From Pseudomonas sp. ADAK13 (lineage in GTDB: Bacteria; Pseudomonadota; Gammaproteobacteria; Pseudomonadales; Pseudomonadaceae), in the NCBI RefSeq assembly GCF_012935715.1, contig NZ_CP052860.1, positions 558,001 through 622,000 on the forward strand: a stretch of 64,000 nt of DNA. The letters run 5' to 3'. The notes beneath the pieces were generated by a model. It was not told the DNA's origin and did not search any database. It saw nothing but the letters and a program-made list of their open reading frames with translations. Both the position numbers and the translations under genes were made by a program. Below, one piece after another: positions 29,058-32,580 of the stretch. Position 1 is the first letter of the stretch. The number at the start of each line of letters is the position of its first letter.

Positions 29058-29654
29058 ATGGCTTTCGAATTGCCGCCGCTGCCCTACGCACACGATGCCC
29101 TGCAGCCGCACATTTCCAAGGAAACCTTGGAATATCACCACGACAAGCACCACAACACCTATGTCGTGAACCTGAACAACCTGGTGCCTGGCACCGAGTT
29201 CGAAGGCAAGACCCTGGAAGAAATCGTCAAGTCTTCTTCGGGCGGCATCTTCAACAACGCCGCTCAGGTCTGGAACCACACCTTCTACTGGAACTGCCTG
29301 GCGCCAAACGCCGGCGGTCAACCTACCGGCGCACTGGCTGAGGCGATCAACGCCGCCTTCGGTTCGTTCGACAAGTTCAAGGAAGAGTTCACCAAGACTT
29401 CCGTCGGCACCTTCGGTTCCGGTTGGGGCTGGCTGGTGAAAAAGGCTGACGGTTCCCTGGCCCTGGCCAGCACCATCGGCGCCGGCAACCCGCTGACCAG
29501 CGGCGACACCCCGCTGCTGACCTGCGACGTCTGGGAACACGCTTACTACATCGACTACCGCAACGTGCGTCCAAAGTATGTGGAAGCGTTCTGGAACCTG
29601 GTCAACTGGAAGTTCGTGGCTGAGCAGTTCGAAGGCAAAACCTTCACCGCTTAA
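29058..29654 (+). CDS. sodB: Superoxide dismutase [Fe]
   Basis: 198 aa. It dismutates superoxide in the cytosol. The N-terminal [35 protein letters not shown] and the C-terminal [11 protein letters not shown] give the metal ligands (His27, His74 region in NHTFYW, Asp and His in DVWEH). The [17 protein letters not shown] segment is typical of the Fe form. Strong SD TAGGAG. Monocistronic with its own terminator. Confidence 0.96.
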
Positions 29655-29700: not shown

Positions 29701-29729
29701 TGGGCATAACAATTTGTCATCCCTGCGCC

Positions 29730-29758
29730 GGAACTCACTAATAGTCTTTTGCCACGTA
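29730..29758 (+). promoter_or_regulatory. hrp-box-like ECF promoter before the 74-aa gene
   Basis: GGAACT (29730-29735), 16 bp, CCACGTA (29752-29758). This fits the HrpL consensus GGAACC-N15/16-CCACNNA except for one base. The convergent micro-gene has GGAACT-N16-TCACTCA at the same distance from shared leader motifs. Which ECF sigma factor reads it is unknown. Confidence 0.5.
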
Positions 29759-29803
29759 ATCAACGAGAGGAATTGATCTCTCTTACCTGTCGGAGAAATA
29801 ACA

Positions 29804-30028
29804 ATGACAATAGGCGCACTGGCAGCACTTCCTGTAGTAGGCGACTTGTTAAAAGCAGCGATTCCTGTGGTTGGCGATATCGTCAAGGCGGTCACGCCAT
29901 TGATCCAACCCTTCGCAGATGCCCTGGCTAAGAAGATAGGAGGCGAGGAGCAGGAGTCCCCAAGCAAGTCCATCGAGTTCTCCAAAGGCTTGGACGCTGA
30001 AAAGCTGACGATTACCTTCAAGTCCTAA
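29804..30028 (+). CDS. Small amphipathic protein, 74 aa, unknown
   Basis: ATG with TCGGAG eight bases upstream. The N-terminal half holds two tandem 11-residue repeats, PVVGDLLKA (10-18) and PVVGDIVKA (21-29), likely amphipathic helices; the second half is polar (GGEEQESPSKSIEFSKGLDAEKLTITFKS). No signal peptide of standard form. The promoter and leader match those of the convergent gene at 30176-30337. It could be a secreted or membrane-active peptide; I know no family for it. As I recall, sodB and bifA are adjacent in P. aeruginosa (PA4366-PA4367), so this pair would be an insertion. Confidence 0.65.
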   Translation: MTIGALAALPVVGDLLKAAIPVVGDIVKAVTPLIQPFADALAKKIGGEEQESPSKSIEFSKGLDAEKLTITFKS

Positions 30029-30175
30029 CAGCAACGCCACCCTTTATCCCTGCGCCGGGCCAGAGCGGGATGTTGCATGGCACAAACTGAAAAAAACAGC
30101 ACGCAAGAGATGGCGGAAAGACCTCTCTCCGCCCCCTCTTGCGACACAGGATCGACAGGGATAAACAAGCCCTCA

Positions 30176-30337
30176 TCAGAACTTGATTTGCTGCTGTTGA
30201 TTCATAGCGCTCCCAGCAAAATTGCTTACAGCGCCCAACGCCTGTTTTGCGACGTCTGCCGCCACGCCTGCTGCCTGGCCTACCAAGGGAAGGACCACGG
30301 GTGCCAACGCTGCGGCGGCCGCTCCTGCTGCGATCAT
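30176..30337 (-). CDS. Small hydrophobic protein, 53 aa, unknown
   Basis: ATG at 30337 with TCGGAG nine bases upstream. The sequence is Ala/Val/Gly-rich (MIAAGAAAAALAPVVLPLVGQ) with one long hydrophobic or amphipathic helix and a Gln-rich tail ending in IKF. It is convergent with the 74-aa gene and has the same leader motifs at nearly identical spacing. The frame extends 26 codons upstream, but that part crosses the leader. The type (bacteriocin-like, secreted helper, membrane peptide) is open. Confidence 0.6.
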   Translation of the reverse strand: MIAAGAAAAALAPVVLPLVGQAAGVAADVAKQALGAVSNFAGSAMNQQQQIKF

Positions 30338-30384
30338 AAGTAAATACTCCGAAATAGAATGAAAGGCGTATTCCTCTCCCGACC

Positions 30385-30413
30385 TGAGTGAACCGTTGCG
30401 GAAATTTAGTTCC
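30385..30413 (-). promoter_or_regulatory. hrp-box-like ECF promoter before the 53-aa gene
   Basis: Minus strand: GGAACT (30408-30413), 16 bp, TCACTCA (30385-30391). Both this and the 29730 site are followed by GAGAGGAAT starting exactly 29 bp after GGAACT. Confidence 0.45.
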
Positions 30414-30522
30414 ACTTTTCGTAACTTTTTGCGCCTGCCGCAATGTCCCTTTGACTGCCCTCACTGGATTGCCAATACTCATGGCATATTGAGGCTACCC
30501 GCATGGAACAAGGAATAACCCT

Positions 30523-32580
30523 TTGAAGCTGGAACTCAAAAACAGCTTGTCGGTGAAGTTGCTACGGGTGGTACTGCTTTCGGCATTGGCAGTGGGCGTG
30601 GTACTGAGCGCGGCGCAGATCGTCTTTGATGCGTACAAGACGCGCCAGGCCGTGGCCGGTGACGCCCAGCGCATCCTCGACATGTTTCGCGACCCCTCGA
30701 CCCAGGCCGTCTACAGCCTGGACCGGGAGATGGGCATGCAGGTCATCGAAGGCCTGTTCCAGGACGATGCCGTGCGCATGGCCTCCATCGGCCACCCCAA
30801 CGAAACCATGCTCGCGGAAAAAACCCGCGACCTGCAACAATCCCCGAGCCGCTGGCTGACCGACCTGATTCTGGGCCAGGAGCGCACTTTCACCACGCCG
30901 CTGGTGGGGCGCGGGCCTTACAGCGAGTACTACGGTGACCTGAGCATCACCCTCGACACCGCCACCTACGGCAAAGGGTTTCTCGTCAGCTCAGTGATCA
31001 TTTTTATCTCCGGGGTGCTGCGAGCCCTGGCCATGGGCCTGGTGTTGTACCTGGTTTATCACTGGCTGCTGACCAAGCCGCTCTCGCGAATCATAGAGCA
31101 CCTGAGTTCGATCAACCCCGACCGCCCCAGCGAGCACAAGATCCCGCAGCTGAAAGGCCACGAGAAAAACGAACTGGGGATCTGGATCAACACCGCCAAC
31201 CAGTTGCTCGAATCCATCGAGCGCAATACGCACTTGCGCCATGAGGCGGAAAACAGCCTGCTGCGCATGGCCCAATACGACTTTCTCACCGGTTTGCCGA
31301 ACCGCCAGAAACTGCAGGAGCAACTGGACAAGATCCTGATCGACGCCGGCCGCCGGCAACGTCGGGTCGCCGTGTTGTGTGTGGGGCTGGATGACTTCAA
31401 AAGCGTCAACGAGCAGTTCACCTACCAGGCCGGCGACCAGTTGCTGCTGGCCCTCGCCGACCGCCTGCGCGCCCACAGCGGCCGCCTGGGTGCCCTGGCC
31501 CGACTGGGCGGCGACCAGTTCGCCCTGGTGCAGGCCGATATCGAGCAGCCTTATGAAGCCGCCGAGCTGGCACAAAGCATCCTCGATGACCTGGAAGCGG
31601 AGTTCGCCCTCGACGATGGGCACGAGCAAATCCGCCTGCGCGCCACCATCGGCATCACCCTGTTCCCGGAAGACGGCGACAGCACCGAGAAGTTGCTGCA
31701 AAAAGCCGAACAGACCATGACCCTGGCCAAGAGCCGCTCGCGCAACCGCTACCAGTTCTATATCGCCAGCGTCGACAGCGAAATGCGCCGCCGCCGCGAG
31801 CTGGAAAAAGACTTGCGCGATGCCTTGAGCCGTGAGCAGTTCCACCTGGTGTACCAGCCACAGATCAGCTACCTCGACCACCGCGTGGTGGGGATCGAAG
31901 CCTTGATTCGCTGGCAGCACCCGGAGCACGGCCTGGTGCCACCCGACCTGTTTATCCCGCTGGCGGAACAGAACGGCACCATCATTGCCATCGGCGAATG
32001 GGTCCTGGACCAGGCCTGCCGGCAACTGCGGGAATGGCACGACCTGGGTTTCACCGAGCTGCGCATGGCGGTCAACCTGTCGACGGTGCAACTGCACCAC
32101 GCCGAGCTCCCACGGGTGGTCAACAACCTGCTGCAAATCTACCGCCTGCCGCCCCGTAGCCTGGAGCTGGAAGTCACCGAGACCGGCCTGATGGAAGACA
32201 TCAGCACCGCCGCACAGCACCTGCTGAGCCTGCGCCGCTCCGGCGCGCTGATTGCGATTGATGACTTCGGCACCGGCTATTCGTCCCTGAGCTATCTGAA
32301 AAGCCTGCCGCTGGACAAGATCAAGATCGACAAGAGTTTCGTCCAGGACCTGCTGGATGACGACGACGATGCGACCATCGTGCGGGCGATCATCCAGCTC
32401 GGCAAAAGCCTCGGCATGCAGGTGATCGCCGAAGGCGTGGAGACCGCCGAACAGGAGGCCTACATCATCTCCGAGGGCTGTCACGAAGGTCAGGGCTACC
32501 ACTACAGCAAACCCCTGCCGGCGCGGGAGTTGGTGGCCTATTTGAAACAGGCCCAGCGCAACAACGCCGCCATTCTCTGA
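30523..32580 (+). CDS. bifA: BifA-type c-di-GMP phosphodiesterase (GGDQF-EAL)
   Basis: 685 aa. Two membrane segments (about 13-35 and 155-180) enclose a periplasmic sensor region, then a HAMP-like linker, a GGDEF domain (about 250-415) and an EAL domain (about 430-680). The GGDEF signature is altered to GGDQF (329-333), so cyclase activity is unlikely. The EAL site is intact (EALIRW 459-464, EVTETGLMED, DDFGTGYSSL, EGVET). It degrades c-di-GMP and controls biofilm and swarming. TTG start with AAGGA eight bases upstream. The sodB neighbour matches P. aeruginosa bifA (PA4367). Confidence 0.93.
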   Translation: MKLELKNSLSVKLLRVVLLSALAVGVVLSAAQIVFDAYKTRQAVAGDAQRILDMFRDPSTQAVYSLDREMGMQVIEGLFQDDAVRMASIGHPNETMLAEKTRDLQQSPSRWLTDLILGQERTFTTPLVGRGPYSEYYGDLSITLDTATYGKGFLVSSVIIFISGVLRALAMGLVLYLVYHWLLTKPLSRIIEHLSSINPDRPSEHKIPQLKGHEKNELGIWINTANQLLESIERNTHLRHEAENSLLRMAQYDFLTGLPNRQKLQEQLDKILIDAGRRQRRVAVLCVGLDDFKSVNEQFTYQAGDQLLLALADRLRAHSGRLGALARLGGDQFALVQADIEQPYEAAELAQSILDDLEAEFALDDGHEQIRLRATIGITLFPEDGDSTEKLLQKAEQTMTLAKSRSRNRYQFYIASVDSEMRRRRELEKDLRDALSREQFHLVYQPQISYLDHRVVGIEALIRWQHPEHGLVPPDLFIPLAEQNGTIIAIGEWVLDQACRQLREWHDLGFTELRMAVNLSTVQLHHAELPRVVNNLLQIYRLPPRSLELEVTETGLMEDISTAAQHLLSLRRSGALIAIDDFGTGYSSLSYLKSLPLDKIKIDKSFVQDLLDDDDDATIVRAIIQLGKSLGMQVIAEGVETAEQEAYIISEGCHEGQGYHYSKPLPARELVAYLKQAQRNNAAIL

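Follow-up and report, generated by a model that had tools for sequence, protein, structure and literature searches.

Variable small genes with HrpL-type promoter boxes between sodB and a GGDEF-EAL gene of Pseudomonas

In Pseudomonas sp. ADAK13, the gap between sodB and a GGDEF-EAL gene holds two short open reading frames (ORFs) that point at each other and encode proteins of 74 and 53 amino acids. The window analysed here is the 64,000-nucleotide stretch of contig NZ_CP052860.1 (positions 558,001 to 622,000) in which they lie. We find that the pair is one form of a cassette whose members share a promoter box of the HrpL type and a leader hairpin. On balance, it seems probable that the cassette encodes small accessory or secreted type III proteins that are controlled by RspL, that are swapped between strains as cassettes, and that are orphaned in the window strain. 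RspL is the sigma factor, of the HrpL type, that belongs to the rsp type III secretion system. A defined gene set with a testable leader RNA is tied here to the rsp system (43 of the 45 genomes examined). Furthermore, the products differ far more than the adjacent sodB, and turnover of this kind often points to contact with hosts or rivals. The window strain, a natural case of type III loss that has kept orphan genes, is useful for watching the decay of a regulon.

The HrpL regulon itself is well known. Passages of three papers on P. syringae describe scattered single genes, with a GGAAC-N15/16-CCAC-NNA box and many hypothetical proteins among their products (PMC4149516, PMC3879358, PMC8303149); two such proteins of 61 and 40 amino acids, HP02555 and HP29775, have a hrp box and are lowered in an hrpL mutant (PMC8303149). 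As far as those passages go, the cassette resembles that regulon in its box, in its scattered single genes outside the hrp cluster and in its hypothetical products. It differs by its fixed site between sodB and the GGDEF-EAL gene, its conserved leader hairpin and its hypervariable product. For fluorescens-group strains, in which a passage of PMC3390384 calls the function of type III secretion enigmatic, candidate effectors predicted from hrp boxes have already been published (PMC3390384, PMC6647874). These share the genus group and the box logic with the cassette, whose members may be among the hypothetical proteins reported there. The portions of main text compared are silent on a cassette beside sodB, on a leader hairpin and on the swapping of alleles. 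Among the papers listed in searches of the open literature, with subscription papers and supplements outside their scope, none describes the site, the leader or the allele swapping in its title, abstract opening or passages compared.

The two genes and their shared leader

The gene for the 74-residue protein is on the plus strand (29804..30028); its product has a predicted helical body and ends in LTITFKS. It is preceded by the box GGAACT-N16-CCACGTA (29730..29758), by a hairpin of 6 bp with an AAU-type hexaloop (29765..29782), close to the expected transcription start, and by the Shine-Dalgarno sequence TCGGAG (29790..29795). The gene for the 53-residue protein is on the minus strand (30176..30337, start at 30337); its product has an Ala-rich hydrophobic stretch and ends in QQQIKF. 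Its leader has the box GGAACT-N16-TCACTCA (30385..30413), a hairpin (30361..30378) and the same Shine-Dalgarno sequence TCGGAG (30347..30352), all on the minus strand. A previous sequence-only reading of the window had described these convergent ORFs and their motifs; both were re-derived and its description is accurate, including the start of GAGAGGAAT 29 nucleotides after GGAACT in both leaders. The agreement between the leaders goes far past coincidence.

Both short ORFs are conserved coding genes, as judged by codon substitution. In a sample of 298 Pseudomonas genomes, window genome included, a protein search found homologues of the 74-residue protein in 11 genomes and of the 53-residue protein in 4, the window genome being counted each time. 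The ratio of nonsynonymous to synonymous substitution rates (dN/dS) of the 74-residue gene is 0.28 against L065 (Pseudomonas sp. MWU15-20650, the nearest named relative) and 0.19 against genome G017; that of the 53-residue gene is 0.19 and 0.22, respectively. Other pairs with the 74-residue gene of the window gave 0.15-0.38, one with saturated dS. Across the compared pairs with at least 55% amino acid identity and finite dS the range is 0.08-0.62, dS being saturated in two further pairs. The homologue loci compared, 21 from 17 genomes, all lie between sodB and the GGDEF-EAL gene. A gene of the 53-residue class occupies the plus-strand slot in G095 and G286; in most genomes that slot holds other classes.

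A wider protein search collected 62 proteins in the alignment of the 74-residue class, from Pseudomonas wherever the organism is named, 49 proteins of a second class and 12 of the 53-residue class. The names shown among the 62 are hypothetical or uncharacterized protein, except that two are labelled "membrane protein" by their source; one protein of the second class is source-labelled "Type III secretion protein". Two of the 62 (P0053, P0055) carry precomputed Pfam labels. Alignment A1 comprises 10 of the 11 homologues of the 74-residue protein (L010 was left out), and alignment A4 comprises 51 of the 62 proteins and that of the window.

The box is present at all 15 loci that were found by protein similarity, 72-82 nucleotides before the protein match, although it was not used to pick them; these include all 11 loci of the 74-residue class. 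The leader of box, hairpin and Shine-Dalgarno sequence was found upstream of 47 ORFs in 44 genomes. A GGAG and an ORF starting with ATG follow every one of the 47 boxes found, and none was dropped. The invariant GGAAC, CAC and A29 of these leaders are partly built in by the pattern used to pick boxes; the checks anchored on proteins and on the hairpin are free of that circularity. In all five whole genomes scanned, a loose hrp-box pattern occurred less often than its control, and the box alone therefore proves nothing.

For the hairpin-anchored check and those that follow, the HrpL/RspL query was the sigma gene adjoining the export-apparatus genes of G017, named by position. Proteins at least 75% identical to it are called RspL type, and those of 42-56% identity distant HrpL. 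Used as the sole anchor, the hairpin sequence gave one anchor each in 33 of 45 RspL genomes. GGAAC lies exactly 35 nucleotides upstream in 30 of these leaders and is shifted by a single base in the remaining 3, and CCAC is in register in 30. The box bases carry 1.5-1.8 bits, as compared with mostly less than 0.9 in the spacer. The same anchoring in 50 non-RspL genomes gave one anchor and no box.

The hairpin begins at box base 36 in 40 of the 47 leaders and at bases 34-37 in all. By analogy with extracytoplasmic function (ECF) promoters in general, this would be about where an HrpL transcript should begin. In the alignment of the 47 leaders (A3), 90.7% of the cells are paired and two-sided, compensatory changes are seen in all six pairs. 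There are 26 compensatory cells, as against 8.3 ± 2.2 in shuffled alignments (none of 500 was as high) and at most 10 in slid versions. A leader model was run on 68 genomes with a cut-off of E < 1e-4. It matches 44 of 46 RspL genomes, of which 43 are in the model by construction and G052 is independent (E 2e-8). It also matches both window leaders (plus strand, E 6.4e-12; minus strand, E 1.3e-10), whose sequences are both inside the model. At this cut-off none of 10 distant-HrpL and none of 8 HrpL-less genomes matches; weaker matches (E 0.06-0.48) occur in 5 of 21 genomes that have an HrpL of 69-73% identity, a distant HrpL or none.

Only two strong matches of the model lie outside the sodB gap, in G121 and G286. 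Downstream of each of these second-site copies is a short ORF whose body is different and rich in Ser and whose C-terminus is still of the shared kind (QIIF or QITY). At this second site (L209, L210), the Ser-rich ORF adjoins an ORF of about 100 amino acids, with an ORF that looks cupredoxin-like by eye further on. In the plus-strand leader of L067, the GAGAGGAAT sequence is lost and a GGGG/CCCC stem is kept at about the same place. Control of the leader by CsrA/RsmA was considered and rejected: the GGA lies mostly in the stem, and it is lost where pair 6 is A-U (9 of 47 leaders).

Association with RspL and its loss in the window strain

A relative of HrpL was found at E <= 1e-25 in 84 of the 298 genomes, with an identity of at least 69% in 49 of these. 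All 12 other genomes with a homologue of the 74- or 53-residue protein, found by protein alone, carry HrpL, and so do five of five further named genomes (91-96% identity). At E <= 1e-200 the GGDEF-EAL protein has a match in all but one of the 298 genomes (297), and the gap region was taken from 100 genomes, drawn from about 150 of these matches. Five stretches without sodB beside the GGDEF-EAL gene (G053, G231, G100, G228 and G275, which have no HrpL and no box in the stretch) were dropped, leaving 95 usable gaps. The box is present in the gap of 43 of 45 RspL genomes, of none of 11 with a distant HrpL and of none of 39 without HrpL (Fisher p 5e-25, uncorrected for phylogeny). Gaps of cassette genomes measure 492-1024 bp. 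The convergent double form is found in two of the 43 RspL genomes with a box (G004 and G017), as well as in the window genome and L065-L067.

Since 43 of 45 RspL genomes have it, the cassette is their normal state. The earlier suggestion that the pair is an insertion between sodB and bifA holds in that the genes are additional to the sodB/bifA-like pair, and fails in that they are not peculiar to this strain. Its proposal of a single HrpL-type regulon with a shared leader is borne out by the box at the protein-found loci and by the co-occurrence with RspL, and regulation of the cassette by RspL is well supported by these comparisons.

The window genome has no HrpL at E 1e-25. A looser search found a match of 39 amino acids to the end of HrpL (77% identity) at G000:C1:3186213-3186329, beside a gene that we label ychF. 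In G059, a relative, these neighbours flank a region with hrpL at one end and rsp genes at the other end, the approximately 14.7 kb between lying outside the fetched sequence. The alignment of the window genome with G059 is interrupted within hrpL and picks up again ahead of ychF, its two parts being separated by about 660 bp of unmatched DNA. A gene flanking the rsp cluster, which we label PhzF-like, failed as a site marker in the window genome, and ychF marked the site. The only matches to the rsp export gate in the window genome are 41% and 34% identical. By these alignments, the type III cluster and hrpL have been lost from this place in the window strain. The regulon is therefore orphaned there, since HrpL is reduced to a C-terminal scrap of 39 residues. 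The box of the 53-residue gene is the only one of the 47 with TCAC, all others having CCAC (the search pattern allowed just C or T there). Relaxed selection would be expected to leave such a box, although one case is weak evidence.

The window genome has another type III-like set near 7.01 Mb (G000:C1:6998001-7036000; L074, L076, L077), in which an ORF of 426 amino acids that looks secretin-like by eye lies beside the export gate that is 41% identical to that of rsp. No hrp box was found in the two stretches fetched around this set.

Variable products and their possible role

Of the 42 genome pairs whose sodB genes are at least 98% identical, 30 encode products less than 35% identical; this comparison covers 43 of the 44 genomes, one sodB start being unmatched. 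The window genome and the five genomes nearest to it, as judged by the GGDEF-EAL protein (99%), have sodB identities of 97.8-99.0%, and their plus-slot products are 17-46% identical. Whole-cassette exchange would explain this variation better than rapid point mutation, because changes within a class are under purifying selection, and alleles would then be swapped as whole cassettes.

The 47 products are 51-80 amino acids long and contain 16.9% Ala, 11.7% Gly, 0.5% Arg and no Cys. A motif [IVLMF]-x-[FYW] lies within the last seven residues of 34 of them, as compared with a mean of 1.7 and a maximum of 8 after shuffling. Net charges run from -4 to +1, which argues against a cationic membrane-lytic peptide; the membrane-active peptides of the sequence-only reading are not favoured in that form. 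A Kyte-Doolittle mean of 1.6 over 19 residues is reached by 17 of the 47, which are hydrophobic enough for a membrane segment. The one long hydrophobic helix described earlier fits the 53-residue product and is not general. The N-terminal rules of type III export are only partly followed: an aliphatic residue or Pro is found at position 3 or 4 in 47 of 47 related proteins, as against 64% of 178 control ORFs with mechanically picked starts, and a further rule holds for 26 of the 47, both window proteins included, as against 51% of the controls, while the Ser-rich N-terminus of type III effectors is absent, the 53-residue protein having 2 Ser in its first 50 residues.

These results fit the following scheme. 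In plant-associated strains of the fluorescens group, RNA polymerase with RspL would read the cassette, initiating just downstream of GGAAC-N16-CCAC-NNA, and because of this the transcript would start at the 6-bp hairpin or a few bases before it. The hairpin probably serves to shield the 5' end or to adjust translation. When the injectisome is built, the GGAG would then drive synthesis of a Cys-free protein of 51-80 residues whose Ala/Gly-rich body is variable and whose C-terminus often carries an I-x-F/Y tail. Most likely this would be a pilin- or harpin-like protein that serves the type III machine as a small accessory part or leaves by it as an export substrate. Alleles would be exchanged between strains as cassettes, with sodB and the GGDEF-EAL gene staying nearly identical. 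In the window strain, expression of the two head-to-head genes from these boxes has probably ceased. The type III link, the turnover and the lack of cysteine agree with an accessory protein that is secreted or exposed at the surface, and the small proteins may be exported by the type III system. A narrower version, which we put forward tentatively as a possibility, makes the gap a site dedicated to exchanging a hypervariable small protein that the type III system exports, with promoter, 5' hairpin and C-terminal tail constant and the body variable. If so, unrelated-looking alleles at flanks 98-99% identical are what is expected of an exposed injectisome part or a host-recognised product.

Two known kinds of protein come close to the products. 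The pilin HrpA is variable, and Hrp/Rsp pilins (HrpA/RspA) are small, like the cassette products, and HrpL-controlled, as those probably are too. However, two rspA candidates of 57 and 69 amino acids, chosen by position in L051 and L212, lie inside the rsp cluster, lack such a leader and have different ends; with separate candidates in the rsp clusters, the cassette product is not the pilin by position. Harpins are HrpL-controlled, Gly-rich and without cysteine. The cassette genes have the HrpL-type box; their products contain 11.7% Gly and no cysteine, with Ala higher (16.9%), have only 51-80 residues and are often hydrophobic. A hrp box also precedes a Gly-rich, harpin-like ORF of 106 amino acids ending in NPVKFG in G052 (L034).

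Several observations weigh against the type III reading or its parts. Sampling of the gaps was not random but gave RspL-bearing genomes precedence and went by similarity, and the co-occurrence does not represent 95 independent events, because the RspL genomes are clade-structured. Two genomes, G067 (gap of 184 bp) and G176, have RspL and no cassette, and the HrpL match of G234 spans residues 81-183 only. Three genomes with an HrpL of 69-73% identity (G198, G244, G256) have no leader-model match at E < 1e-4. Further pair types in the hairpin, 11 as compared with 9.6 in shuffled alignments (63 of 500), are unexceptional. As for the products, 13 of 47 are without the C-terminal motif, and the first 50 residues of the 74-residue protein include no Ser. 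Its AlphaFold2 model is poor, with a low-confidence long helix and a predicted local distance difference test score (pLDDT) of 59.7. Pfam and NCBIfam gave no credible match for the two window proteins or for eight other small proteins tested.

The products might instead be co-regulated with the type III system without ever leaving the cell; as small membrane or regulatory proteins they would then act on the envelope, on needle assembly or on the neighbouring cyclic di-GMP signalling. The Ala/Gly-rich composition, the 17 products that could form a membrane segment, the two homologues labelled membrane protein by their source and the fixed position beside a GGDEF-EAL gene speak for such a role, but strong variability at nearly identical flanks is odd for an internal part, and the two second-locus copies keep the C-terminal motif on Ser-rich, hydrophilic bodies. 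We regard it as unlikely. Another reading takes the products for antibacterial membrane peptides of a bacteriocin-like kind, specific to the strain and taken over by the RspL regulon. It would account for hypervariable products between conserved flanks and for strains in which two different peptides are encoded next to each other. This is quite improbable in view of the net charges, of an occurrence tied to RspL and of gaps that offer little room for immunity or export genes (further ORFs in them were not annotated).

That the window genome keeps both genes without HrpL, and has other sigma genes 27-38% identical to RspL, could mean that AlgU, SigX or another ECF sigma factor reads the boxes, which would then still be active there. 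The empty gaps of all 39 HrpL-less genomes make this very improbable, and the only TCAC box sits in a genome without HrpL. The transcripts could also act as RNAs, as small RNAs with a leader hairpin, the ORFs being incidental, since the hairpin covaries while the proteins vary. This is hardly credible, given the dN/dS values, the GGAG and ATG ORF after every box and the C-terminal motif.

Other features of the gap

The flanking genes are both on the plus strand: sodB, for an Fe superoxide dismutase (29058..29654), on the 5' side, and the GGDEF-EAL gene (30523..32580), which is bifA-like, a name that comes from the sequence-only reading, on the 3' side. Between the convergent genes is a strong inverted repeat, assigned to neither strand (30102..30143), in a region of 151 nucleotides with a folding z of -2.35. 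With a U run 3' of it on the minus strand, it looks like a terminator of the 53-residue gene. It is absent from the output of a simple terminator scan; that scan for sigma-70 promoters and simple terminators gave one promoter-like site near 30451, and the "terminator" that it called is the minus-strand leader hairpin itself. A plasmid search with the 881-bp region gave no match, and Rfam at E <= 1 gave just two weak matches, far below the gathering score, near the sodB end.

The TTTATCCCTG that had been noticed behind both stops is present, as an inverted repeat of 10 nucleotides (30043-30052 and 30156-30165). It is not shared by the family: of the relatives checked, five in all, four lack it on both sides and the fifth has a single copy, and it is thus largely strain-specific. 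A direct repeat of 13 nucleotides, ATCCCTGCGCCGG, at 29719-29731 and 30046-30058 brackets the 74-residue gene and is possibly a trace of its exchange.
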